DNA of 21,335 bases, taken from an uncultured Actinomycetes bacterium. GTDB taxonomy: Bacteria > Actinomycetota > Actinomycetes > Nanopelagicales > Nanopelagicaceae. The position numbers were made by a program, and so were the translations under genes. Position 1 is the stretch's first letter; every line of letters starts with the position of its first letter. The stretch lies in the NCBI GenBank assembly GCA_903852955.1, contig CAINSH010000014.1, positions 1 to 21,335 on the forward strand, given 5' to 3'. Below are positions 5,080 through 18,246 of the stretch, piece by piece. Under the pieces are notes generated by a model, which was given only the letters and a program-made list of their open reading frames with translations, was not told the origin of the DNA and ran no database searches.

Positions 5080-5640
5080 ATGCAAGTTGGAATTATCTTG
5101 GCGGCCGGATCTGGTTCACGCATGGGCGCACCAAAGGCAACCCTAGAAATTGACGGCGAACGTTTAATCGACAGAGCCGTATCGCTCTTTCATGGCGCAG
5201 GCATTAAAGATGTATGTGTAGTTCTTGGTGCATGGCAAGGATTAGTTCCAGATGCCGAAGTACTGATTAATCCTGATTGGGAAACCGGAATGGGTAGTTC
5301 ACTTCGAGTGGGACTTGATTATGTGGAAAAGCGTTCAGAGTTCACCGAAGCAATCATTACTTTGGTAGATCTGCCTGGGCTGACATCTGCGGCAATTCGC
5401 GCCGTTGCCGATTCTGCCCATGAGATTGTCATGGCAACTTTTAATTCAAAGCCAGGACACCCAGTTAAATTCGCCCGAAAATATTGGAAAGAGATTGCCC
5501 AAAGCGCCGATGGGGATGCAGGCGCCCGTAACTTTCTCAAAGGGCGAGACGATGTCACTAAAATTGCCCTCGAAAATCTTGCTATTGGAAAAGATATCGA
5601 TACCCCCGAAGATTTGGCCGGGTATTTAGGTCAAATTTAG
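5080..5640 (+). CDS. mocA: MocA-like molybdenum cofactor cytidylyltransferase
   Basis: A 186-residue nucleotidyltransferase. The N-terminal signature L-A-A-G-S-G-S-R-M-G-A-P-K (7-19) is of the MocA (CTP-using) rather than the MobA type (LAGGxxxRMG). Other marks are G-M-G-S-S-L-R-V-G-L (70-79), the metal-binding V-D-L-P-G-L (96-101), G-H-P (126-128), D-G-D-A-G-A-R (144-150) and D-I-D-T-P-E-D-L (172-179), all usual for this family. It would attach CMP to Mo-molybdopterin to give the cytosine dinucleotide cofactor used by CODH, which fits its position just before the cox operon. The ATG at 5080 starts immediately before the catalytic loop, leaving no room for a later start. Nucleotide specificity is inferred from the motif. 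Confidence 0.85.
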   Translation: MQVGIILAAGSGSRMGAPKATLEIDGERLIDRAVSLFHGAGIKDVCVVLGAWQGLVPDAEVLINPDWETGMGSSLRVGLDYVEKRSEFTEAIITLVDLPGLTSAAIRAVADSAHEIVMATFNSKPGHPVKFARKYWKEIAQSADGDAGARNFLKGRDDVTKIALENLAIGKDIDTPEDLAGYLGQI

Positions 5641-6028: not shown

Positions 6029-6898
6029 ATGTATCCATCACGTTTTAAATATGAATCTCCGAAAACTCTTGAAGAGGCGATCAAGCTTCTCGACGCTGGC
6101 AAAGGTGAAGCAAAAGTGCTTGCAGGTGGACAAAGCCTTGTCCCGATGCTCAAACTTCGATTTGCTTTCCCAGATCAGATAGTTGATATCAATAACATTC
6201 CTGGACTTGATTACATTCGCTTCGATGCAGATGGATCACTTCACATCGGTGCACTTGTTCGTCACGAACATTTAGAAAAATCAGTTGAAATTTCAAAACG
6301 TCAACCAACTATTGCCGCAGCTGCGCCACTTGTTGCTGACCCAATTGTTCGCACCCGCGGAACTTTCGTAGGTTCTGTTTGTCACGCGGATCCGCAAGGA
6401 GACTGGGCGGCAACAATGATTGCGCTTAATGGTCATCTTGTTGTGCAAGGTCCAAAGGGCAAGCGCAATATTGCCATGAAGGATTTCGTACTTGGACCTT
6501 ATGCGACAACGCTTAACTACAACGAGATTGCAATCGAAGCAGTTATTCCAGCCCCTAAGGGAGTTGCACGTGGTGGCTACCTCAAGCTCGAACGTCGCGT
6601 TGGTGACTTCGCCACTGCATCTGTAGCTGTTGCACTCGATATGAACGGTGACACAGTGCTCGGTGCAGGGTTTGCACTTGCAGGTGTTGGCGGAAAAACA
6701 ATCGATGCAAACGATGCAGCATCAGCGTTAGTAGGTCAGAAGTTAACTGAAGCAACAATCGCCAAAGCTGCAGCGCTAGTTGCAGCAAAGGCTGAGCCTC
6801 GTACAGACCATCGTGGTTCTGCAGAATACAAACGCCACATCGTTGAAACTTTTGTTAAGAGAATCCTTACCGCAAACTCCACACAGAAAGTAGCCTAA
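6029..6898 (+). CDS. coxM: CoxM, FAD-binding medium subunit of carbon monoxide dehydrogenase
   Basis: A 289-residue protein of normal CoxM length. It carries FAD and passes electrons from the iron-sulfur subunit towards the quinone pool. FAD-binding marks are V-L-A-G-G-Q-S-L-V-P-M-L-K-L-R (30-44) for the pyrophosphate and the second loop T-R-G-T-F-V-G-S-V-C-H-A-D-P-Q-G-D (109-125). The C-terminal CO-dehydrogenase flavoprotein domain includes E-Y-K-R-H-I-V-E. The gene order M-S-L is that of form I CODH operons. The start has AGGAGA about 10 bases upstream. Related xanthine dehydrogenase FAD subunits look similar; the CODH assignment comes from coxL next door. Confidence 0.95.
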   Translation: MYPSRFKYESPKTLEEAIKLLDAGKGEAKVLAGGQSLVPMLKLRFAFPDQIVDINNIPGLDYIRFDADGSLHIGALVRHEHLEKSVEISKRQPTIAAAAPLVADPIVRTRGTFVGSVCHADPQGDWAATMIALNGHLVVQGPKGKRNIAMKDFVLGPYATTLNYNEIAIEAVIPAPKGVARGGYLKLERRVGDFATASVAVALDMNGDTVLGAGFALAGVGGKTIDANDAASALVGQKLTEATIAKAAALVAAKAEPRTDHRGSAEYKRHIVETFVKRILTANSTQKVA

Positions 6899-6901
6899 AA
6901 A

Positions 6902-7429
6902 ATGTCGAGCCTTTACGAAGAAATCCAAGCTGCACCATCAAGTGATATTCCGGTTCGTCGCGTTACAGTAAATGTGAACGGAGAAGATCGCACTGCAGAT
7001 GTTGAACCACGACTTTTGCTTGCACACTTGCTACGACAAGCATTTAAACTAACTGGAACTCACACTGGTTGCGATACAACTAACTGTGGTGCTTGCACAA
7101 TCCTTTTTGATGGCCGTCCAATTAAGAGTTGCACGATGCTTGCGGTTCAGGCAGATGGTCACAAAGTTCAAACTGTTGAAGGCCTTGCATCTGCAAGCGA
7201 ACTTCATCCGCTACAAGAAGGCTTCAAGCAAGAGCATGCTCTTCAATGTGGTTTCTGTACTCCAGGAATGATGATGGCAGCGAAGGCCCTTCTAGAAGAG
7301 AATCTGAATCCAACTGAAGATGAAGTTCGTTGGGCGCTATCTGGAAATCTTTGCCGTTGTACCGGTTACCAAAATATTGTTAAGGCAGTTCTCTGGGCTG
7401 CTGAAAAAATGCGCGCGGAACTTAACTAG
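6902..7429 (+). CDS. coxS: CoxS, iron-sulfur small subunit of carbon monoxide dehydrogenase
   Basis: A 175-residue ferredoxin-like protein that moves electrons from the Mo-Cu site to FAD. All eight cysteines for two [2Fe-2S] clusters are present: C57, C62, C65 and C77 in [10 protein letters not shown] (plant-type ferredoxin cluster), and C116, C119, C151 and C153 in Q-C-G-F-C-T-P-G-M and N-L-C-R-C-T-G-Y (the four-helix cluster domain). An N-terminal extension of about 18 residues precedes the first strand. The start lies 3 bases after the coxM stop without a clear Shine-Dalgarno sequence, so translation is probably coupled. Confidence 0.96.
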
Positions 7430-7447: not shown

Positions 7448-9829
7448 ATGAAACTAGACGAAGTCAAAATTGGTGGAATGGGCGCAAGCCGTCGCCGAGT
7501 TGAAGATAACCGTTTTATCCGTGGCAAAGGTAACTATGTAGACGATGTTGTTCTTCCAGGAATGCTTCACATGGAGATCTTGCGTAGCCCACTAGCTCAT
7601 GCACGTATTAAGTCAATTGATACAAGCGCAGCATGGGATATGCCAGGAGTTCGACTTGTTCTTACCGGCGAGATGCTTGCAGCTCGTAACCTTGCATGGA
7701 TGCCAACACTTTCTTATGACACTCAAGCAGTTCTTGCTACAGACAAGGTGCGCTTTCAGGGCCAAGAAGTTTGTGCAGTTATTGCAGATGATCCATACAT
7801 CGCAAAAGATGCGTGTGGAAAAATCGTTGTGGAGTACGAAGTATTGCCTCCAATTGTTAACCCAGTCCAGGCAGCAGCTGCCGACGCAGTTCAGATCCGC
7901 GACGATAAGGCTGGCCAAGTTGGAAATAAAGTATTCGACTGGGAAATTGGCGATAAATCCCGAACCGATAAAGCATTTGAAGATGCAGATGTAGTTTCAA
8001 AAATCGAACTTCACTATCCACGTACACATCCATCACCAATGGAAACATGTGGATCTATTGCAGATTACGATCGCGCAACAGGCAAACTAACTGTCTACAT
8101 GACTTCACAAGCACCACACATTGTGCGTGCAGCTGTTGCGATGGTGGCTGAACTTCCTGAGCAAAACATTCGTATCATCACACCAGATATTGGTGGCGGA
8201 TTTGGTAATAAGGTGCCAATTTATCCAGGATATGTAATTGCAATTCTTGGTTCAATTTTGACTGAAAAGCCGGTCAAGTGGATTGAAGACAAGACCGGCA
8301 ACTTAACTTCTACTGGTTTTGGTCGCGATGTGTACCTTAAGGGCGAGATGGCGATGCGCAAGGATGGAAAAATCCTTGGTGTCCGCATGAACACAATCTC
8401 AGATCACGGTGCATTCTTCGCAGATGCTCAACCAAGTAAGTTCAAAATTGGTCTGATGCACTCTGCATTTGCTGCATATGACATTCCAACAGCACATATG
8501 TTTGCAACTGGTTACTACACAAATAAAGCACCTGGTGGAGTTGCATACCGTTGTTCATTCCGTGTTACTGAAGCCATGTTCTTCCAAGAGCGTATGGTTC
8601 AGGCAGCAGCAGATGATCTTGGTATGGATCAAGCAGAGTTTCGCCGTATTAACTTCGTTAAGGATGAACAACATCCTCACCGCACAGCATTTGGTTTCTT
8701 AACTGACTCAGGTCAGTACGAGAAGTGCCTTGATATCGGATTAGAAGCAATTGGCTACAAGAATTTTGCTGCCGAAAAGGCTGAAGCGGCAAAGCGCGGA
8801 CGTCTTCTTGGTATCGGAATTTCAACGATGACTGAACCTTTGGGCGCTGGAAACAGCCGTGAGTACGACATTTTGGGTATCAAGATGTTTGACTCTGCCG
8901 AACTTCGCATCCATATGTCAGGTAAAGCTCTTTTGCGTACTGGTTCTCGCGGACAAGGTACTGGGCACGAGACAACATGGGCACAGATTGTCGCTCACGA
9001 ACTCGGAATTCCTGCTGATGACATTCTTGTTGAAGAAGGAGATACAGATACTGCGCCATTTGGTATGGGTACCTATGCATCTCGTTCTACACCAGTAGCT
9101 GGTGCAGCGATTGCAATGGTTGCTCGTAAAGTTCGCGCGAAAGCTCGAAAGCTAGCCGCCCACCTTCTTGAAGTTTCTGAAGAAGATATTGAGTGGGAGT
9201 TAGGTCGCTTCTATGTTCGTGGAAATCAAGAACGTGGCGTGACAATTCAAGATTGCGCGATGGCTGCATACAGCAATATGCCAGATGGCATGGAGCCAGG
9301 TCTGGAAAATGTCGCTTACTACGATCCTCCCAACCTAACTTGGCCGTTTGCTTGCTACATCGCCAAAATTGAAATTGATCCAGAGACAGGTGTTTGGGAT
9401 GTATTGCAGTTCGTTGCAGTCGATGACTGTGGTGTTCGTATCAACCCAATGATCGTTGAAGGACAGATCATGGGTGGTCTCACCGAAGCGTATGCAATGG
9501 CGAACATGCAGTATCAAACCTACGATGAAGAAGGAAACATCATCGGCGGTAACTACATGGACTTCTTGCTTCCAACTGCATGGGAAACTCCAGGGTTTGA
9601 GCTGTACGAAGTAGTTACACCTTGCCCACACCATCCAATTGGTGCAAAGGGCGTGGGTGAATGTGCAACTGTTGGTGGACCAGCAGCGTTTGTTAACGCT
9701 GTCATGGATGCTCTTAAAGATAAGGGTGTTCGTAACATCGATATGCCGTTAATGCCTAACCGTGTTTACGAAGCACTAACTACAGGTAAAGATGTTTACG
9801 GTATGCCTCCAGTACGGAGCGGCAACTAA
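7448..9829 (+). CDS. coxL: CoxL, form I catalytic large subunit of carbon monoxide dehydrogenase
   Basis: A 793-residue molybdenum hydroxylase subunit that oxidises CO with water to CO2, two protons and two electrons. The diagnostic form I motif A-Y-R-C-S-F-R is at residues 366-372; C369 is the expected copper ligand of the Mo-S-Cu centre. Further marks are the form I-like N-terminus S-R-R-R-V-E-D-N-R-F-I-R-G-K-G-N-Y, the glycine-rich cofactor loop I-G-G-G-F-G-N-K, and A-K-G-V-G-E-C near the end with the catalytic Glu at 738. Form II homologues carry AYRGAGR instead, so this is not a generic aldehyde or xanthine dehydrogenase. A strong ribosome site (GGGGAGCGGAGAG) precedes the ATG. Confidence 0.97.
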   Translation: MKLDEVKIGGMGASRRRVEDNRFIRGKGNYVDDVVLPGMLHMEILRSPLAHARIKSIDTSAAWDMPGVRLVLTGEMLAARNLAWMPTLSYDTQAVLATDKVRFQGQEVCAVIADDPYIAKDACGKIVVEYEVLPPIVNPVQAAAADAVQIRDDKAGQVGNKVFDWEIGDKSRTDKAFEDADVVSKIELHYPRTHPSPMETCGSIADYDRATGKLTVYMTSQAPHIVRAAVAMVAELPEQNIRIITPDIGGGFGNKVPIYPGYVIAILGSILTEKPVKWIEDKTGNLTSTGFGRDVYLKGEMAMRKDGKILGVRMNTISDHGAFFADAQPSKFKIGLMHSAFAAYDIPTAHMFATGYYTNKAPGGVAYRCSFRVTEAMFFQERMVQAAADDLGMDQAEFRRINFVKDEQHPHRTAFGFLTDSGQYEKCLDIGLEAIGYKNFAAEKAEAAKRGRLLGIGISTMTEPLGAGNSREYDILGIKMFDSAELRIHMSGKALLRTGSRGQGTGHETTWAQIVAHELGIPADDILVEEGDTDTAPFGMGTYASRSTPVAGAAIAMVARKVRAKARKLAAHLLEVSEEDIEWELGRFYVRGNQERGVTIQDCAMAAYSNMPDGMEPGLENVAYYDPPNLTWPFACYIAKIEIDPETGVWDVLQFVAVDDCGVRINPMIVEGQIMGGLTEAYAMANMQYQTYDEEGNIIGGNYMDFLLPTAWETPGFELYEVVTPCPHHPIGAKGVGECATVGGPAAFVNAVMDALKDKGVRNIDMPLMPNRVYEALTTGKDVYGMPPVRSGN

Positions 9830-9833
9830 GTAC

Positions 9834-10796
9834 ATGTCATTTAATCCAGTGGAAGGCATGGGCGTTATGGAACGCGCAGTCGAACTCACAAATAGCGGTG
9901 AATCATTTGTGATGGCGACTGTCGTGTGGCGCCAAGGCCCTTCTTCAGGACAAAGCGGATCACGAGCAATCATTACTTCTGATGGAAAACTTCACGGATG
10001 GATTGGCGGAGCATGTGCCGAGCCAGTTCTTATCCGTGAAGCTAAAAAAGTAATGGATTCAGGAAAAGCACAGTTAATTTGGCTGGGTCAAGAAGTTGAC
10101 TTCAAAGGAATGCATGTTCCTGATGGCGTCATTACTGTTCCAATGGCGTGCCAAAGCGAGGGAGCTCTTCAAATTTATGTTGAGCCAGTTCAATCTTCAC
10201 CGCAGGTGATGATTGTGGGGCGCTCGCCAATGGCCGTAACTCTCAAGCAATTAATCGATGTCCTTAATTGGCGTGTGCAGATAGTTGATTTTGCCGATTT
10301 CACTAAGAGCATGGTCAATTCATCAACTGTTGTCATCGTTGCAACGCAGGGTCATGGTGATGAAGAAGCAACCGAGATTGCACTACCTGCCGCGCCTGCA
10401 TATCTTGGCGTCGTGGCATCACGCAAACGTGGAGCTGCAGTGCTTTCATATCTAGAAGATCGTGGTTTTTCTAAAACTCAGATTGATACGGTTAATCTGC
10501 CAGCAGGTTTAGATCTTGGACACACAACTCACCGTGAAATGGCAGTGTCAATTCTGGCGCAGTTAGTTCAACTTCGTGCCGCTGGATCTTTGACACAGAA
10601 AGCAACACCACATTTGCTTCAGATGGTTCAAGCAACAGAAGTAATCGACTTGGTCTGTGGAATGACAGTAACTGCTGAAAAATCTAATCGTCCCTTTGAA
10701 TTTGAAGGAACGGTTTATTACTTCTGTGCGCCAGGGTGTCGTACAGCGTTTGAAAAAGATCCAACCTCATTTATCAACCAGGAGGCAAAATGCTAA
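9834..10796 (+). CDS. XdhC/CoxF-family protein fused to a C-terminal YHS metal-binding domain
   Basis: A 320-residue protein. Its N-terminal XdhC domain keeps the motif A-T-V-V-W-R-Q-G-P-S-S-G-Q-S-G-S-R and W-I-G-G-A-C-A-E with the conserved cysteine. A Rossmann domain follows (M-I-V-G-R-S-P-M-A with a degenerate Gly loop; A-Y-L-G-V-V-A-S-R-K-R; P-A-G-L-D-L-G-H-T-T-H-R-E-M-A-V-S-I-L). From about residue 270 a YHS domain is appended: D-L-V-C-G-M (C275) and Y-Y-F-C-A-P-G-C (C298, C302). YHS domains bind metals and occur in copper ATPases. In this place it could help copper or cofactor delivery to CODH. I chose the ATG at 9834, 4 bases after the coxL stop; later in-frame ATGs lie at 9858 and 9867. 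The stop overlaps coxG by 7 bases. Confidence 0.85.
   Translation: MSFNPVEGMGVMERAVELTNSGESFVMATVVWRQGPSSGQSGSRAIITSDGKLHGWIGGACAEPVLIREAKKVMDSGKAQLIWLGQEVDFKGMHVPDGVITVPMACQSEGALQIYVEPVQSSPQVMIVGRSPMAVTLKQLIDVLNWRVQIVDFADFTKSMVNSSTVVIVATQGHGDEEATEIALPAAPAYLGVVASRKRGAAVLSYLEDRGFSKTQIDTVNLPAGLDLGHTTHREMAVSILAQLVQLRAAGSLTQKATPHLLQMVQATEVIDLVCGMTVTAEKSNRPFEFEGTVYYFCAPGCRTAFEKDPTSFINQEAKC
10780..10785 (+). promoter_or_regulatory. Strong Shine-Dalgarno sequence of coxG
   Basis: AGGAGG lies inside the end of the XdhC-YHS gene, 4 bases before the coxG ATG, with the two coding frames overlapping by 7 bases. This suggests coupled translation with high output for coxG. Confidence 0.6.
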
Positions 10797-11377
10797 TCTC
10801 GCAGACGATAGTCGTTGATCAACCGATCGATGATGTATGGAAATTCTTTGATGATATTCCACAACTAGCAGCATGTATTCCTGGTGCTGATCTCACCGAC
10901 AAACTTGGAACAGACCACTACGGTGGAGATGTAATCATCTCTGCAGGTCCAGTTAAACTTGAATTTGCGGGACAGGCAAAAGTAGCCAACCGCGATAATG
11001 CGAAGAAGACTATTACTCTGGATGCATCTGGCTCAGATAAGAAAGGCCGCGGAGAAGCGCAAGCAATTCTCGTTGCAGCACTCAACCCAGTTGCTGGCGG
11101 AACTTCAGTCAAAATTTCACTTGATCTCACCGTTTCCGGTGCCGCTGCTCAATTCGGACGAGGCCTTATCGCCGATGTAACAGCAGTTTTGGTTAACCAG
11201 ACAGCCGGCAGCATGCAAGCACGTATGAAGGCAATCGAGATGGGTCTTGACCCAAATACTGTCGGTGGTCCAAAAGCTGCAAGCGGTGTTGCAATTGCAA
11301 TGACAGTTGTAAAGAAGTCAGCGACAAGAATTTTTGCGCGCTTCTTCCTTCCATATCAACCAGTAGCACGTCGATAA
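10790..11377 (+). CDS. coxG: CoxG, SRPBCC-fold CODH membrane-association protein
   Basis: A 195-residue protein of the CoxG branch of the SRPBCC (START-like) superfamily. The signature W-K-F-F-D-D-I-P-Q-L-A-A-C-I-P-G-A-D-L near the N-terminus is typical, as is G-P-V-K-L-E-F-A-G-Q-A and the helix that follows A-A-Q-F-G-R-G-L-I. CoxG is needed for membrane attachment of CODH in Oligotropha, and work on mycobacterial CODH links it to delivery of menaquinone. The C-terminus has a basic and aromatic tail (I-F-A-R-F-F-L-P-Y-Q-P-V-A-R-R) that could touch the membrane. The last 50 residues are less conserved in the family. It is followed by five small membrane-protein genes. Confidence 0.92.
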   Translation: MLISQTIVVDQPIDDVWKFFDDIPQLAACIPGADLTDKLGTDHYGGDVIISAGPVKLEFAGQAKVANRDNAKKTITLDASGSDKKGRGEAQAILVAALNPVAGGTSVKISLDLTVSGAAAQFGRGLIADVTAVLVNQTAGSMQARMKAIEMGLDPNTVGGPKAASGVAIAMTVVKKSATRIFARFFLPYQPVARR

Positions 11378-11393: not shown

Positions 11394-11648
11394 ATGAGTC
11401 TTTGGGGAATCGGTAATCTGGTTCTGTTAGTTGTCATCGTTCCAGTTCTCGTCGCTCTGCTAAATGCAGTCCTCGGGCCGCTAGAGCGCATTCGCGGAGC
11501 AGCAGATGATGCACTCGGTGGAGGAGTCGCTTTGATCGGCGAACTTAACACCACACCAGATTTACTAGCTAAAACAGATAACGTAATTAAGGAAGTGGCT
11601 AACGGAGCAGTTCGTTACGCCGGTCCAGTTTCTAAGTTGCTGGGATAG
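11394..11648 (+). CDS. Small single-helix membrane protein 1 of 5 after coxG
   Basis: An 84-residue protein. A hydrophobic helix spans about residues 6-27 (L-V-L-L-V-V-I-V-P-V-L-V-A-L-L), followed by a helical soluble part with G-G-G-V-A-L-I-G-E-L-N-T-T-P-D-L-L-A-K-T-D-N. The start has AGAAAGGA upstream. The second half resembles those of its neighbours: GGVA(L/V)I is shared with protein 2, and NT...(D/E)L(L/I)xxT...G with protein 4. It is probably anchored by its N-terminus, with the remainder on one face of the membrane. No known family is recognised. Position suggests a role in anchoring CODH or in quinone access together with CoxG, which is inference. Confidence 0.8.
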   Translation: MSLWGIGNLVLLVVIVPVLVALLNAVLGPLERIRGAADDALGGGVALIGELNTTPDLLAKTDNVIKEVANGAVRYAGPVSKLLG

Positions 11649-11657
11649 GGGAGTCAG

Positions 11658-11885
11658 ATGCCACAACAAGCAGTATTTACTTTAATTTTAGCCACACTCA
11701 TTATTGCTGCCGCAGCACTTGGGTTAACTCGCGTGATTCTTCATCTGCGCTCAGTTGCTAAATCACTGGCTGCACTCGAAGGCGGAGTAGCGGTAATCGT
11801 TGCAAAGACTGCAACAGTTCCAACAGTTGTCTCATCAGTAAACGCCAGCCTCAAGCCAGTGCGTGACTTCGCGGAATCGATCTAG
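11658..11885 (+). CDS. Small single-helix membrane protein 2 of 5 after coxG
   Basis: A 75-residue protein, the shortest of the set. A membrane helix spans about residues 5-28 (V-F-T-L-I-L-A-T-L-I-I-A-A-A-A-L-G-L-T), then a short basic turn (L-H-L-R-S-V-A-K-S-L) and an amphipathic stretch with E-G-G-V-A-V-I-V-A-K-T. GGGGAG lies just before the ATG as ribosome binding site. It starts 9 bases after protein 1. Apart from the similarity to its neighbours I recognise no family. Confidence 0.8.
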   Translation: MPQQAVFTLILATLIIAAAALGLTRVILHLRSVAKSLAALEGGVAVIVAKTATVPTVVSSVNASLKPVRDFAESI

Positions 11886-11895
11886 GGGAGCGATC

Positions 11896-12150
11896 ATGGA
11901 CTTTACTAATCACACCGGTTGGCTCATCGGCTACGTCATTGCAACAGTTGTTGTACTTGTCGTTGTTGCCCTTGTAGTTCCAATCTTGCTACTTGCTCAC
12001 AAAATTGGTGGACAAGCACAGCGCATCAATGCAGGACTTGAAAGCGCAGTTGTTAATACAGCTGGTCTTAAGGGATTAAAGGTCACAATTGCATCGGCTA
12101 CTGCGATTGTTGCTGGTCTTAACCGTGGCCGTACGAAGTTGGGAGGCTAA
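11896..12150 (+). CDS. Small single-helix membrane protein 3 of 5 after coxG
   Basis: An 84-residue protein starting at the ATG at 11896, preceded by GGGGAG at 11885-11890; the frame is open 11 codons further upstream but that stretch overlaps gene 2 and lacks a ribosome site. A long hydrophobic helix covers about residues 9-34. The soluble part I-N-A-G-L-E-S-A-V-V-N-T-A aligns without gaps with I-R-E-T-L-T-A-A-K-A-N-T-A of protein 4, and both then continue with Thr/Ala-rich helices ending A-x-x-A-G-L or A-E-G-L. This pair is the clearest sign that the five genes arose by duplication. Function unknown. Confidence 0.8.
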   Translation: MDFTNHTGWLIGYVIATVVVLVVVALVVPILLLAHKIGGQAQRINAGLESAVVNTAGLKGLKVTIASATAIVAGLNRGRTKLGG

Positions 12151-12154
12151 GGCG

Positions 12155-12430
12155 ATGGATTCAAATACTCACTCACTCTGGGTACTAGCAAATATCTTGG
12201 GTGCAGTTGTAGTCGTAGCAGTTGCTGCGCTTCTGACAATCTTGGTATTGCTAGTTCGAGTTATTGATAAGCGAGTTGCACAGATTCGCGAAACTCTTAC
12301 AGCTGCAAAAGCTAACACCGCAAACACGGAGTTGATCAATCAGACAGCTGCTGCAGTTGATGCAGTCTTGGCTGAAGGTCTAGAACACCATTTATTCCTC
12401 GGTCGTGTATTGGAAAAGGTGCGCTCATGA
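12155..12430 (+). CDS. Small single-helix membrane protein 4 of 5 after coxG
   Basis: A 91-residue protein starting at ATG 12155 (GGGAGG at 12141-12146). The membrane helix is at about residues 8-34. A helical domain follows with V-I-D-K-R-V-A-Q-I-R-E-T-L and N-T-E-L-I-N-Q-T-A-A-A-V-D-A-V-L-A-E-G-L-E-H-H. The His pair H78-H79 lies in an otherwise regular helix and could bind a metal, though nothing proves it. Its stop overlaps the start of gene 5 in an ATGA (12427-12430), showing translational coupling. No known family is recognised. Confidence 0.8.
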   Translation: MDSNTHSLWVLANILGAVVVVAVAALLTILVLLVRVIDKRVAQIRETLTAAKANTANTELINQTAAAVDAVLAEGLEHHLFLGRVLEKVRS

Positions 12431-12789
12431 GTACTCTTCAACTCTTCTCAGTTATAGATATCGCAGCTCTTATTGCAGGTCTTGCAATCTATCTATTTAT
12501 CGTTGGACGCCAATTAGCTGCAGTAGCAGTAAAACTTGAAGAAGCGGCCGACCTTGTTTGGGAGATCAAGCGCGATGCTGACGCAATCGAGCCAGGTCTT
12601 GGGCGCATTAATAGAACTGGCGGCGTAGTCGCGGGTGCTCTTCCACTTTTGTATGGCTTTGCAGAAGCAATTGTTGTTGGTGCAACTTATGTAGCAGAAC
12701 CAGCAAATGCTGAACCTAAGCCAAATTTCCCAGCAATGGGAACAAGGCGCTCGCGTCTATTTGATGGTGTTGGCGTAAAGATCGATTAG
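12427..12789 (+). CDS. Small membrane protein 5 of 5 after coxG, with C-terminal extension
   Basis: A 120-residue protein, the longest of the set. The N-terminal helix is at about residues 8-27 (V-I-D-I-A-A-L-I-A-G-L-A-I-Y-L-F-I-V). A charged helix follows (V-K-L-E-E-A-A-D-L-V-W-E-I-K-R-D-A-D), then a second, weaker hydrophobic stretch at about 66-89 (G-G-V-V-A-G-A-L-P-L-L-Y-G-F-A-E-A-I-V-V-G-A) that may be a second membrane or re-entrant segment, and a Pro-rich basic tail. The operon ends here, 3 bases before the convergent GIY-YIG-like gene. The middle part keeps the I...L..I..(T)G pattern of the other four only loosely. Confidence 0.8.
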   Translation: MSTLQLFSVIDIAALIAGLAIYLFIVGRQLAAVAVKLEEAADLVWEIKRDADAIEPGLGRINRTGGVVAGALPLLYGFAEAIVVGATYVAEPANAEPKPNFPAMGTRRSRLFDGVGVKID

Positions 12790-13534: not shown

Positions 13535-14665
13535 TTATCTAATTGATACGAGTTTGCGGCTGAATTCTTCCAGACTCTTAAGGTTATGTCCTGACACAAT
13601 TTCATCAATAAATGGCTCTGCAATGATCATTCCCATTGATGTGGGCACATATCTGTCTGTGTCACCTCTGTGAGGGTTCATCCAAACAACTCTATGGGCA
13701 ATGCGCGATAGCGCTTCCATAGATTTTGCCAAAGTTTCTGGATCGCCTCTATCGAGTCCATCTGAGCAGATAACAACTATTGAACCGCGACCTACGCGAC
13801 CACGACCCCATTTTTTTAAGAATGTGTTAACGGCATCGCCAATGCGAGTTCCACCTTCCCAATCCATTGCTTCAGCGCCAGCTAGCTCCATTGCTTGATC
13901 AGGATTTCGCCGCGAGAGCGAACGAGTTACACGTGTAAGTCGAGTTCCAAAGCAGAAGACTTCCACTTTTTGATTTGCACTTCGCGCAGAGTATGCAAGT
14001 TGTAATAAATTTCTGGAGTAGTCAGCCATAGATCCTGAAATATCAAGGATAAAAACTATTGGGCGCAACTTCTCTTTTTTCTTCGTATAGAAAATCTCTC
14101 GATTCTCACCCAGTGCACGCATGTTCTCGCGAACAATCTTTCGCATATTCAATTTCTTACCTTTGCGTGTTGCAACTAAACGTCTAGTTTTGCGAATGGG
14201 TGGATTAAGTCGGATGTTGGACATCATCTTGCGAAGTGCTGCCAGCTCTTTTGGGGTGCACTCGTTGAAGGCTTTATTTCGAAAAATTTCATGGCTTGCT
14301 GCCATAAATCCCATTTTGGTGTCATCGTTGGAATCGCCCTGTTCAGTTCTTTCATTTTCAGGGATTTCGATTGTGGATGTTGTGCTTACTTGCGCACGAA
14401 ACTTCTTCTTAGCTTCGCTAACTTCATCATCCCAATTGTCAAAGAAGAATCTCTGAAAGATTTCGTTGTAGACCGGGATATTTTCCTTGCGGCGCACTAA
14501 ACAAGTTCTACCGCCCCAGTAGACATCCATGACATTAGTTGCATCTAAGACTGATACTGCATTGCAAAAGGTAATAACGTCATCAGAACCGATGAGCATC
14601 CCATGCAATCGAAGTTCTTGAGCAAATTCAACAAAGAGTTCGTCAAAACCCTCAGAGAGAGGCAT
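13535..14665 (-). CDS. coxE: CoxE, VWA-domain CODH maturation protein
   Basis: A 376-residue protein with a C-terminal von Willebrand A domain. The metal-ion-dependent adhesion site is intact: F-I-L-D-I-S-G-S-M (D208, S210, S212), W-E-G-G-T-R-I-G (Thr site) and I-C-S-D-G-L-D-R-G-D-P. The N-terminal half is the CoxE-specific region (L-F-V-E-F-A-Q-E-L-R-L-H-G), and a Lys/Arg-rich linker lies between. With CoxD it forms a MoxR-VWA pair that remodels apo-CODH so that sulfur and copper can enter the Mo site. The ATG at 14665 overlaps coxD by 14 bases; one at 14698 would add 11 residues. Neither start has a clear ribosome site. Confidence 0.9.
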   Translation of the reverse strand: MPLSEGFDELFVEFAQELRLHGMLIGSDDVITFCNAVSVLDATNVMDVYWGGRTCLVRRKENIPVYNEIFQRFFFDNWDDEVSEAKKKFRAQVSTTSTIEIPENERTEQGDSNDDTKMGFMAASHEIFRNKAFNECTPKELAALRKMMSNIRLNPPIRKTRRLVATRKGKKLNMRKIVRENMRALGENREIFYTKKKEKLRPIVFILDISGSMADYSRNLLQLAYSARSANQKVEVFCFGTRLTRVTRSLSRRNPDQAMELAGAEAMDWEGGTRIGDAVNTFLKKWGRGRVGRGSIVVICSDGLDRGDPETLAKSMEALSRIAHRVVWMNPHRGDTDRYVPTSMGMIIAEPFIDEIVSGHNLKSLEEFSRKLVSIR

Positions 14666-15539
14666 CAGAGACAATTTCTGCAAGGTTGCCAGAAACATAT
14701 TCGAGATCGTCGCGACCCTTAATAACTGCGCCTAATGTTTCGGCTGCATTTACTTCGGTGAGATTATTTGCACCGATTGCTCCAAGAGATTGAACCCAAT
14801 CGATAGTTTCGGCAACTCCAGGAGATTTTTCAAGATCCATCGCACGGAGTTTATTTACGCTACCGACTACTTTCGAAGCTAATTGCTCTGAGACACCTGG
14901 GACTCGAGATTTAACAATTTCAATCTCTTGCTCTGTTTCAGGGAAGCCAATCCAGTTGTAGAGACAGCGGCGCTTAAGTGCATCATGTAATTCACGAGTA
15001 CGGTTTGAAGTTAAAATTACTATTGGACGAGAAGTTGCAGCGATTGTGCCGATTTCTGGAATTGTTATTTGGAAATCGGAGAGAAGTTCAAGAAGAAATG
15101 CTTCAAATTCGTCATCTGCGCGATCAACTTCATCAATGAGCAATACGCATTGGTCGCCCGCTTTTATAGCCTGAAGCAGCGGACGTTCGATAAGAAATTT
15201 AGACCCAAAGAGATCATCGACGGATTTATCAGAAACTTCGTTGCCAGACATTGCGCGGATTTGAAGCATCTGGCGCGCATAATCCCATTCATACAAGGCT
15301 TGATTGGTATCGATACCTTCGTAACATTGCAAACGAATTAAAGAGCGTCCCAGAAGTTGCGAAATACTTTTTGCCAGTTCGGTCTTTCCAACACCGACTT
15401 CACCCTCAAGGAGAATCGGGCGACCAAGTTTCATGGAAATCAGGAGAGATGTTGCGAGTCCGCGGTTAGCGACATAACCGATAGAGCGAAGCTCTGATAT
15501 TAATTCGTCAACGGTCAGTGAATCGAAAGATGAAATCAT
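14652..15539 (-). CDS. coxD: CoxD, MoxR-type AAA+ ATPase for CODH maturation
   Basis: A 295-residue AAA+ ATPase of the MoxR family. Walker A is G-E-V-G-V-G-K-T (46-53), Walker B L-L-I-D-E-V-D-R-A-D (133-142), sensor 1 L-T-S-N-R (N179), and arginine finger candidates are in A-L-K-R-R-C (190-191). CoxD acts as an ATP-driven unfoldase or remodeller for the functionalisation of the Mo-S-Cu centre, working with the CoxE VWA protein encoded next. It follows the 84-residue unknown gene by 23 bases and overlaps coxE. In many form I operons coxDE lie downstream of coxMSL on the same strand; here they are on the opposite strand and converge on the operon. Confidence 0.92.
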   Translation of the reverse strand: MISSFDSLTVDELISELRSIGYVANRGLATSLLISMKLGRPILLEGEVGVGKTELAKSISQLLGRSLIRLQCYEGIDTNQALYEWDYARQMLQIRAMSGNEVSDKSVDDLFGSKFLIERPLLQAIKAGDQCVLLIDEVDRADDEFEAFLLELLSDFQITIPEIGTIAATSRPIVILTSNRTRELHDALKRRCLYNWIGFPETEQEIEIVKSRVPGVSEQLASKVVGSVNKLRAMDLEKSPGVAETIDWVQSLGAIGANNLTEVNAAETLGAVIKGRDDLEYVSGNLAEIVSDASL

Positions 15540-15904: not shown

Positions 15905-16378
15905 ATGACCGAGAAACTGACGCACATCAACGACCATGGTGAAGCTCACATGGTAGATGTCTCAGATCGCGCAGAAACTACTCGTACTGCAACGGCTTCG
16001 GGGAAGGTATTGCTCACCAAGGAAGTTCTTGCGCTAATTGCATCAGGGTCAACTCCTAAAGGCGACGTCCTTGCGACGGCGCGAATTGCAGGAATTATGG
16101 GCGCTAAAAAGACTTCAGAATTAATTCCGCTGTGCCATCCCATCGCGATTTCCAGCGTTAATGTTGAAATCAAGGTTGTTGAAGACGGAGTTTCTATAAT
16201 CTCGACAGTAAAGATTGCAGACCGAACTGGGGTTGAGATGGAAGCCCTCACCGCAGTATCGATCGCCGCATTGACAATTATTGATATGGTCAAAGCACTT
16301 GATCCGGGTGCAACAATAATTAACGTTCGAGTTGAAGAAAAAGATGGCGGTAGAAACGGTCATTGGAAACGTACATGA
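15905..16378 (+). CDS. moaC: MoaC, cyclic pyranopterin monophosphate synthase
   Basis: A 157-residue protein of normal length. MoaC converts the 3',8-cyclo-GTP product of MoaA to cyclic pyranopterin monophosphate. Family marks are the start H-M-V-D-V-S-D-R-A-E-T-T-R-T-A, L-I-P-L-C-H-P-I (H78), and G-V-E-M-E-A-L-T-A-V-S-I-A-A-L-T-I-I-D-M-V-K-A with the catalytic D127 and K130 (E. coli D128 and K131). First gene of moaC-moaB-moaE-moaA; its TGA shares bases with the moaB ATG (ATGA, 16375-16378). Confidence 0.97.
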   Translation: MTEKLTHINDHGEAHMVDVSDRAETTRTATASGKVLLTKEVLALIASGSTPKGDVLATARIAGIMGAKKTSELIPLCHPIAISSVNVEIKVVEDGVSIISTVKIADRTGVEMEALTAVSIAALTIIDMVKALDPGATIINVRVEEKDGGRNGHWKRT

Positions 16379-16860
16379 AACGCGCGGTAATCATCACCGC
16401 CAGTAATCGTGCATTTAACGGTGTCTATGAAGATCGTTCAGGCCAAATTCTTTTGCAAGGGTTGGTAGAGCTTGGATATGACATTAATGAAGTTAAAATT
16501 CTTCCAGATGATCAAGCAAAGATTTCAGAGGCGATTGAATTGTCAATCAAAGATGAAATCGATCTCATTGTCACCACTGGTGGCACAGGCGTTTCACCAT
16601 TTGATGTCACACCAGAGGCCACCGCTCCGCTGGTAGAAAAAACTATGCCTGGCATTCTTGAAGCTCTACGTGCATATTCTCGCGACAAGGTTGCGACCAC
16701 CGATCTTTCTCGCGGAGTAGCTGGAGTGACTAAGAAATCTCTGATCATTAATCTTCCTGGTTCACCAGGCGGAGCTAAAGATGGTCTTGTCATTATTGAA
16801 AGACTTGCATCCCACATCCACGATCAATTGGCCGGACATGATCACAGCCCTAGTAACTGA
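16375..16860 (+). CDS. moaB: MoaB/MogA-family molybdopterin adenylyltransferase
   Basis: A 161-residue protein that activates molybdopterin by adenylation before MoeA adds molybdate. The signature [18 protein letters not shown] is complete, as are I-I-T-A-S-N-R (N-terminal strand; usually TVSDR) and [10 protein letters not shown] near the C-terminus. Actinobacterial copies are generally called MoaB or Mog; only one is in this window, so it is likely to serve as MogA. I chose the ATG at 16375 that overlaps the moaC stop; an upstream in-frame ATG at 16363 would extend into moaC by four residues. Confidence 0.93.
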
Positions 16861-17251
16861 TCAGCCGATTTCAATACAGCGCCTTTCGGAATCTGTTAAG
16901 ACCGAGCAGGCTGGTGCTGTCGCAAGTTTTTGTGGTGATGTCCGAAATAATGACGCCGACAAGGTTGTTGCCTCACTTACCTATGAAATCCATCCTTCGG
17001 CTCAAAAAACCATAGAGGAAATCACACAGCGCATAGCGGCCAAGCATGATGTTTTGGGAGTGGCCGTGGCGCATCGATATGGCCCAATACCGATTGGCGA
17101 GACCGCTTTCGCGGTTGTAGTGTCGGCAGTTCATCGCGGCCCAGCTTTTGCTGCATGCGAACAAATAGTCACGGTAGTCAAAGCCGAGCTTCCGATTTGG
17201 AAGTTTCAAACCTTTGCAGATGGAACCTCAGAATGGGTGAATAGCGCATGA
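16838..17251 (+). CDS. moaE: MoaE, molybdopterin synthase catalytic subunit
   Basis: A 137-residue protein. MoaE, with thiocarboxylated MoaD, adds two sulfurs to cyclic pyranopterin monophosphate. It shows G-A-V-A-S-F-C-G-D-V-R-N (usually GAVVTFVGxVRN), A-H-R-Y-G-P-I-P-I-G-E, V-H-R-G-P-A-F-A-A-C and the active-site lysines K115 and K122 in V-K-A-E-L-P-I-W-K (E. coli K119 and K126), ending D-G-T-S-E-W-V. The ATG at 16838 lies inside moaB, overlapping by 23 bases; the frame is open further upstream but the extra residues have no family counterpart. No moaD lies in the window, so its partner must be encoded elsewhere. Confidence 0.94.
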   Translation: MITALVTDQPISIQRLSESVKTEQAGAVASFCGDVRNNDADKVVASLTYEIHPSAQKTIEEITQRIAAKHDVLGVAVAHRYGPIPIGETAFAVVVSAVHRGPAFAACEQIVTVVKAELPIWKFQTFADGTSEWVNSA

Positions 17252-18246
17252 CACAGTTGATAGACACTTTTGGTCGTGGCCATCGTGATCTTCGCGTTTC
17301 ACTTACTGATCGCTGCAACCTACGTTGCACATATTGCATGCCGCATGACTTTGCCGCATGGTTGCCTTCTGCAGATCTTCTGACAACTGATGAGCTAATC
17401 GAAATAATTGAGGTTGCAGTTTCACAAGGCATAGATGAAATTCGCCTCACAGGTGGCGAGCCAATGCTTCGCCCAGATATTGTTGAAATTGTTTCTCGAA
17501 TTTCTTCAATTAAAAACGCTCCAAAATTATCAATGACCACTAATGGTCTAGCACTGGCCAAACTTGCTAAGCCACTTGTTGATGCGGGTCTTCGCCGTAT
17601 CAATATCAGCCTTGATACATTAGATAAAGATGTATTTAAGAAGATGACTCACCGTGATCGAATTGAAGATGTATTTGCCGGTATTGCAGCCGCCAAAGAA
17701 GCCGGTCTATTACCTGTAAAAATTAACACCGTTTTACTTCGCGGCGTAAATGATTCTGAAGCGGTTTCACTTTTGAAGTGGGCATTAGCCGAGGACCTTA
17801 ACCTGCGTTTCATTGAACAAATGCCCTTAGATGCTGGCGGAATTTGGAAGCGCGATCAACTTATTACTGCAGATGAAATTTTTGCCCAACTTTCAGAGCA
17901 CTATGAATTAACTCCCGTTGAATATCGTGGCTCAGCGCCGGCTGAGGAATTTCTTATTAATGGCGGACCTGCAACTGTCGGAATAATTGGAAGTGTAAGC
18001 CGTCCATTCTGTGGTGCTTGCGATCGCATTCGTATTACATCTGATGGTCAACTTCGATCATGTTTATTCTCGATGACCGAAACTGATTTGCGTTCAATCT
18101 TGCGTTCTGATTTAAGCCCAGAAGCCAAGAATGAAGCACTAGTTTCTATGTTCCATTCAACAGTTAAGGCCAAGCTTCCAGGCCATGGAATTAATGATCC
18201 GAGCTTTATCCAACCTTCACGTCCAATGTCTGCCATCGGCGGATAG
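17248..18246 (+). CDS. moaA: MoaA, radical SAM GTP 3',8-cyclase
   Basis: A 332-residue enzyme of normal length. It uses S-adenosylmethionine to start Moco synthesis from GTP. The radical SAM cluster is C23-x3-C27-x2-C30 (D-R-C-N-L-R-C-T-Y-C-M), the glycine motif L-T-G-G-E-P is at 67-72, and the second [4Fe-4S] cluster uses C255, C258 and C272 (P-F-C-G-A-C-D-R and R-S-C). The C-terminal Gly-Gly (S-A-I-G-G) needed for activity is intact. The ATG overlaps the moaE stop (ATGA at 17248-17251). Confidence 0.97.
   Translation: MTQLIDTFGRGHRDLRVSLTDRCNLRCTYCMPHDFAAWLPSADLLTTDELIEIIEVAVSQGIDEIRLTGGEPMLRPDIVEIVSRISSIKNAPKLSMTTNGLALAKLAKPLVDAGLRRINISLDTLDKDVFKKMTHRDRIEDVFAGIAAAKEAGLLPVKINTVLLRGVNDSEAVSLLKWALAEDLNLRFIEQMPLDAGGIWKRDQLITADEIFAQLSEHYELTPVEYRGSAPAEEFLINGGPATVGIIGSVSRPFCGACDRIRITSDGQLRSCLFSMTETDLRSILRSDLSPEAKNEALVSMFHSTVKAKLPGHGINDPSFIQPSRPMSAIGG

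Follow-up and report, generated by a model that had tools for sequence, protein, structure and literature searches.

Five small genes that follow coxG in the operon of a form I CODH encode five conserved types of protein, each with a predicted N-terminal membrane helix, that fall into two homologous groups and are shared with [NiFe] hydrogenase loci. The genes, here called P1 to P5, lie in a 21,335-nucleotide stretch of DNA from an uncultured actinobacterium (the window). With a probability of roughly 0.6, we propose that P1-P5 form the CODH branch of a membrane module of five proteins that group 1l-type hydrogenases use too, and that the module would dock CODH at the membrane and give it access to menaquinone. 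A first-pass annotation made from the letters of the window had described five consecutive single-helix proteins tied to coxG; the five-gene set was confirmed to be real.

The window and its five small genes

The coordinates of the CODH genes and of P1-P5 are given in Table 1. The gaps from coxG through P1, P2, and P3 to P4 are 16, 9, 10, and 4 nt, and P4 and P5 overlap. A strong ribosome site had been claimed for every gene. P1-P4 do have good sites (AAAGGA, GGGGAG, GGGGAG, and GGAGG, respectively), but P5, which overlaps P4, has a weaker one (AAAAGG). For P3, the conserved start at 11896 was used; the GTG at 11863 called by the ORF tool is not that conserved start.

Four ORFs at 15905-18246 resemble moaC, mog/moaB, moaE, and moaA, judged from translations alone, and a MobA-like gene (5080-5640) and three XdhC-like genes are also present. 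With these genes, the window reads like a compact molybdenum-enzyme island. The YHS fusion on the XdhC/CoxI-type factor perhaps concerns metal handling for the Mo-Cu site.

Searches of P1-P5 against Pfam and NCBIfam gave sub-threshold matches only. DUF948 (PF06103) had no match up to E 1 among the window proteins; among relatives, it matched 4 of 14 P5-type sequences and 1 of 14 P4-type sequences weakly (best E 0.0015). CoxG, encoded immediately 5' of the five in the same operon, matched Pfam COXG and, weakly, a polyketide-cyclase/lipid-transport family, and its Pfam matches gave no sign of a relation to P1-P5.

Table 1. Genes of the CODH locus in the window, in order of position
Feature	Position	Strand	Length	Remarks
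coxM, FAD subunit	6029..6898	+		
coxS, [2Fe-2S] subunit	6902..7429	+		
coxL, form I	7448..9829	+		AYRCSFR loop motif; TIGR02416 1095.6 bits (cut-off 991.15)
XdhC/CoxI-type maturation factor	9792..10796	+		C-terminal YHS domain
coxG	10790..11377	+		Pfam COXG, E 1.1e-16
P1	11394..11648	+	84 aa	predicted N-out single helix; group {P1, P3, P4}
P2	11658..11885	+	75 aa	predicted N-out single helix; group {P2, P5}
P3	11896..12150	+	84 aa	predicted N-out single helix; group {P1, P3, P4}
P4	12155..12430	+	91 aa	conserved C-terminal EGLEHHLFL motif
P5	12427..12789	+	120 aa	overlaps P4 by ATGA
CoxE-like VWA protein (CODH maturation)	13535..14698	-		convergent neighbor
AAA ATPase beside CoxE	14652..15539	-		AAA domains found; CoxD/MoxR name inferred

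Conservation beside coxG

The five genes are under strong purifying selection. Of 15 comparisons that paired the window with three relatives, 13 gave a dN/dS ratio of 0.016-0.086; dS was undefined in the other 2 and exceeded 1 in several. The best 80 of 211 matching loci served as the conservation set, 9 of them cut by contig ends, and the order coxG-P1-P2-P3-P4-P5 was intact in every locus with coxG on the contig (71/71). Nearly all of the 80 are titled as actinobacteria, including Acidimicrobiales, Ilumatobacteraceae, Ca. Nanopelagicales, and Ca. Planktophila, so this gene-neighborhood survey finds the set conserved beside coxG across Actinomycetota. Among 201 genomes of the order, P5 was found in 15, and the identical 15 have a form I-type coxL (13 above the TIGR02416 cut-off and two contig fragments); the other 186 were without P5. 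Five genomes beyond the 15 have weaker TIGR02416 matches and likewise no P5. The tie to coxG that had been read from the window thus extends to its relatives.

The P5 profile retrieved 4490 proteins at E≤1e-3 among 8000 candidates scored, and a precomputed Pfam domain was present in none of the 120 matches listed. Five of these relatives (P0061, P0066, P0075, P0098, and P0107) are annotated as "predicted GNAT superfamily acetyltransferase," a name against which their length and sequence speak. Three environmental bins titled Streptomyces griseus or Bifidobacterium breve (L028, L039, and L064) have P1-P5 clusters of the freshwater-actinobacterial type, and their titles look mislabeled.

Kinship among the five proteins

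Profile comparison with hhalign separated the five into two homologous groups, {P1, P3, P4} and {P2, P5}. With CODH-type sequences alone, P3-P4 was the only strong pair (97.7% probability over 80 columns); P1-P3, P1-P4, and P2-P5 reached 80, 68, and 27%, respectively. When distant loci were added, the probabilities were 97.6-98.4% for P3-P4, 95.4-97.2% for P1-P4, 94.0-95.7% for P1-P3, and 98.2-98.8% for P2-P5, with reversed-profile controls at 13% or below. Pairs between the groups ranged from 1 to 84%, and kinship is not claimed for them. The common origin that the first-pass annotation had proposed for P3 with P4 and for P1 with P4 was borne out, the latter with distant sequences included. 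Its link between P1 and P2, drawn from a shared GGVA(L/V)I motif, was not (10-47%), and we dropped that pair as evidence. Independently, the P4 profile, run on whole genomes, also retrieved neighboring P3 or P1 genes (e.g., G000:C14:11896-12111, E 2.1e-7).

The combined profiles used every third CODH sequence, with the first residue written as M, and were built without L162, L223, and the longer protein at L129:2992; the over-long P5 of L141 and L144 was trimmed. At four loci, the gene adjoining the hydrogenase large-subunit gene scored higher as P5 than as P2 and was reassigned to P2 by position. P2-P5 still reached 98.2% without these four rows, which the non-CODH profiles keep.

Predicted topology and structure

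Each of P1-P5 has one strong N-terminal hydrophobic window, with type means of 2.5-3.4 on the Kyte-Doolittle scale over 64-75 CODH-type relatives. A second window was low in P1-P4 (means 0.9-1.1, maximum 1.56) and borderline in P5 (mean 1.54, maximum 1.85), so P5 may have a second segment that re-enters the membrane or lies along it. With one strong window each, the five are not CoxB, CoxC, CoxH, or CoxK, which the first-pass annotation had set apart as multi-pass proteins, a description that we take from it. Lysine and arginine prevailed C-terminal to the helix in 64/64 P1, 65/65 P2, 69/69 P3, 67/67 P4, and 74/75 P5 rows of CODH type. Under the positive-inside rule, this predicts an N-out orientation with the long helices in the cytoplasm.

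AF2 predicted one continuous helix for P4 (residues 3-90, pLDDT 82.7) and two for P5 (2-61 and 67-86, plus a tail of low confidence; pLDDT 66.6); single-chain pTM was low for both models (0.30 and 0.38), each an isolated helical chain. The amphipathic moment after the membrane helix was clear for P5 and P1 (0 and 6 of 500 shuffles as high) and weak for P2 (22/500), with no excess for P3 (184) or P4 (86). Against the PDB, the P5 profile matched coiled-coil barrels of designed origin (best E 1.5e-18) as well as natural coiled coils, among them a viral polymerase cofactor (1.7e-6) and a chemotaxis receptor (4.6e-6); we read these matches as coiled-coil composition and rejected them as kinship. 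The P3 and P4 profiles matched nothing in the PDB below E 0.02, and the entries listed for all three profiles are designed coiled coils and natural chains of coiled-coil or helical form. By these searches, P3-P5 appear to be without a solved relative beyond the coiled-coil-like matches.

The same five types in hydrogenase loci

Profiles built from CODH loci only and from non-CODH loci agreed type to type at 97.9-99.4%, with reversed controls at 6% or below. This agreement is partly by design because the non-CODH members were typed by best score, and the non-CODH profiles mix loci with all five genes between the small-subunit (SSU) and large-subunit (LSU) genes, other hydrogenase loci, and three loci with no enzyme nearby (L138, L145, and L147). 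That assignment has no bearing on the gene order (P3-P4-P5, P1-P2) that the loci share. In L169, L171, L174, L175, and L278, all five types lie between the SSU and LSU genes in the order P3-P4-P5-P1-P2, P3 of the window being the homologue of the first of these five. A slot between SSU and LSU genes is usual for enzyme parts and unusual for maturation factors.

One large and one small subunit from the carrying loci had their best PDB match in 5AA5, an actinobacterial hydrogenase (E 6.5e-99 and 2.9e-109, respectively), and matched Huc far more weakly. In a set of 73 large-subunit rows, the module, scored as at least two types within 9 kb, was confined to one side of a deep branch (21/36 rows). 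It was found in 0/37 classic group 1h-type rows within the stretches fetched, and on this count classic group 1h hydrogenases were rejected as carriers. Fifteen of the 36 rows in the carrying clade had no set nearby. L164, L170, and L179 are cut by contig ends, L184 and L185 repeat the large subunits of L146 and L132, and the contigs of L167, L168, and L177 hold a set 16, 41, and 42 kb away; the remaining setless rows stand against a constant link. Five loci (L165, L176, and L180-L182) have adjacent SSU-LSU genes with P4-like and P5-like genes, two of the five types detected, and appear to fit the description of group 1m given below; group 1l and 1m labels were assigned here by gene order alone.

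A Tat-like motif was found in 0/32 hydrogenase small subunits, one of which has no upstream sequence to judge. A clade A large subunit had no match at E≤1e-20 in the genome of the window (1.36 Mb, approximately 80% complete). At L223 (G311:C13, 8239-15687), hydrogenase similarity runs across several frames, which suggests decay or misassembly, and the SSU and P3-P4-P5 look intact.

A census of 396 genomes of the phylum placed P5 at 30 sites in 27 genomes: 9 beside cox genes, 15 beside [NiFe] hydrogenase genes, and 6 beside neither (hand count over the stretch fetched). The P4 profile, built from both kinds of locus, found 46 loci in 37 of the 396 genomes, of which 14 lie beside CODH, 25 beside [NiFe] hydrogenase, and 7 beside neither within approximately 8 kb or the stretch fetched (hand tally). 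Three of these seven have a large-subunit gene on the same contig, 16, 41, and 42 kb away. The P4 census leans toward kin of CODH and hydrogenase loci because 13 of the 14 sequences in its profile came from such loci. CbiA-, HypF-, and CoxE-type neighbors were also considered as constant partners and rejected, since they are not constant across loci.

CODH clades with and without the set

In the CoxL tree (80 rows; our trees are quick, with SH-aLRT support only and long-branch warnings), a clade of 22 rows has the set downstream of coxG (SH-aLRT 100); it includes one row with the set split in two and one contig fragment. A second clade of 5 rows (SH-aLRT 100) carries the set in all 5, upstream of coxM and in the hydrogenase order. 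Within it, L264 has all five types 8.2 kb from coxL, L249 has coxG directly before the set, and in L252 and L255 the few ORFs scanned ahead of the set are not CoxG. The set was present in 0/47 other form I rows in the stretch fetched, many of these loci being covered for approximately 7-8 kb on each side or to a contig end, and in 0/6 form II-like rows (L244, L248, L253, and L270-L272). One row, L155, was left unlabeled because its contig ends; the genome carries the set elsewhere, on the contig of L129.

Because two arrangements occur in two CODH clades and the module recurs in hydrogenases, repeated transfer of a ready-made module is the simplest reading, and losses are also possible. Since most form I CODH rows and 37/37 group 1h-type rows show no set in the stretch fetched, it seems dispensable in general.

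Some loci are divided or extended. One genome (G359; L162 and L131) has P1- and P2-like genes near CODH genes and P3-P4-P5 on another contig, where they adjoin a DUF255/thioredoxin-like protein and a penicillin amidase; the module can therefore divide between P2 and P3. Longer ORFs with weak P3 and P5 profile matches stand behind a divergent CODH-linked set (L128:4358-6427 and L129:2752-4865), and the one that was fully read combines an N-terminal helix with repetitive sequence of coiled-coil-like character.

Likeness to known systems

Group 1l [NiFe] hydrogenases have five short membrane-helix proteins, HylTM1-5, encoded between SSU and LSU, and group 1m clusters have two small single-helix proteins of 82-92 aa (PMC9561532, the former citing its reference 24). 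P1-P5 are likewise five short proteins, each with a predicted transmembrane helix, and their homologues of the same type occur in loci with the published SSU-five-LSU arrangement. In the window, however, the five follow coxG and are ordered P1 to P5, unlike the hydrogenase order. The HylTM numbering was not matched to P1-P5 by name. Among the literature matches listed, the word HylTM occurred in PMC9561532 alone. Among the papers listed, in a library with few subscription papers and no preprints, no title or abstract opening linked such proteins to CODH, so they may have been described elsewhere before. The first-pass annotation had named an unmistakable match to some known but unrelated system as grounds against its model. 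That objection half applies: the system matched has a name, but we know of no function for HylTM1-5.

HucM of the group 2a hydrogenase Huc is one protein that, as a tetramer, forms a helical stalk carrying menaquinone to the enzyme (PMC10017518). P1-P5, with their predicted long helices, may likewise form a helical membrane scaffold for a soluble gas-oxidizing enzyme, but they are five types, whereas HucM is a single protein. Searched to E 1, the P3, P4, and P5 profiles did not list a chain of Huc among their PDB matches (for P5, the best 60 of 72), in a copy that holds Huc entries and perhaps the HucM chain itself. The comparison with HucM had been made from the window; it is stronger than that reading could know, the homologues lying inside hydrogenase clusters. 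By analogy, a membrane collar like HucM remains the best model.

Discussion

CODH is a cytoplasmic enzyme, and access to the quinone pool is a requirement for it and for these hydrogenases alike. We propose that each of the five would span the membrane a single time, N-terminus outward, and continue into a long cytoplasmic helix; that the five different types would assemble into one hetero-oligomeric helical stalk or collar; and that this stalk would dock CODH (CoxMSL with CoxG), by itself a soluble enzyme, at the membrane. It would also give CODH and CoxG a path to menaquinone, by which electrons from CO could pass to the respiratory chain. The quinone-binding protein of CODH is reported to be CoxG (PMC13240472), and from this we infer that the five would be a mount for CODH and CoxG together. 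CoxG has also been proposed to reach the quinone pool alone (PMC13240472, citing Kropp et al. 2025), which argues against a need for the module. The setless form I CODH rows, the group 1h-type rows, the setless rows of the carrying hydrogenase clade, and the enzyme-less P4 loci also count against the model, as do the lack of an amphipathic excess in P3 and P4 and the low pTM of the single-chain models.

A broader version is that one transferable five-part stalk serves two unrelated scavengers of atmospheric gas, Mo-Cu CODH and group 1l/1m-type [NiFe] hydrogenases, has been swapped between them more than once, and acts as a quinone-loading conduit in place of the cytochrome b anchor that classical respiratory enzymes have. 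We hold this version tentatively, at slightly less than even odds.

Alternatively, the module could be an assembly platform, keeping the apo-enzyme at the membrane while it matures with CoxE- or Hyp-type factors and having no place in the finished enzyme. Many sets have CoxE-like VWA genes close by (L132, L143, L146, L148-L150, L152, and L153), and so does the window. However, such genes also occur at module-free CODH loci (L157-L161), and the five loci with the module between structural hydrogenase genes have it where maturation factors are unusual. We therefore regard this explanation as unlikely, although it fares best among the alternatives.

Slightly less likely again is a role in trace-gas users that is unrelated to quinone access, such as clustering of enzymes at the membrane, passage of gas or ions, or coupling to an antiporter. 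The seven P4 loci away from both enzymes would suit such a role, one of them beside Mrp-type antiporter genes, but 39 of the 46 P4 loci in the hand tally adjoin CODH or [NiFe] genes, as found with a profile built mostly from such loci. At the antiporter locus (L276:6570-8299), P1-, P3-, P4-, and P5-like genes directly precede the Mrp-type Na+/H+ antiporter genes; the antiporter is possibly a third partner of the module or the match a divergent one by chance.

The five could instead be electron carriers, for example with haem b between helices held by conserved histidines of P4 and P2. In CODH-type rows, the His-His of P4 is present in 68/68 and a histidine just behind the membrane helix of P2 in 65/65. 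In the mixed set, however, these fall to 43/53 for P4 and 22/31 for P2, and no cysteine column reaches 70% in any of the five types, so nothing points to an Fe-S cluster or c-haem. The lack of conserved cysteine and the narrower spread of the histidines favor a structural or quinone-handling role, and electron carriage is improbable. Lastly, a chance cluster of unrelated small hydrophobic ORFs might be suspected, since short low-complexity helices are easily over-aligned and no Pfam match exceeded its cut-off, but it is already refuted by the purifying selection, the constant gene order, the high-probability matches against low reversed controls, and the negative control loci.

How high-affinity scavengers of CO and H2 deliver their electrons to the membrane is a question that is still open and has global relevance. 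Because the same five types sit with CODH, the module is not tied to hydrogenase chemistry, and it most likely belongs to what the two enzymes share, namely, reaching the respiratory membrane. The module was already known by name; its link to CODH was unexpected and gives the interpretation of P1-P5 as a membrane collar a testable base. Hypothetical proteins that had stood unexplained, including those of freshwater actinobacteria, thereby become a testable part with two independent enzyme partners. Taken together, homology and linkage suggest that two unrelated gas-scavenging enzymes share an interchangeable mount in the membrane.
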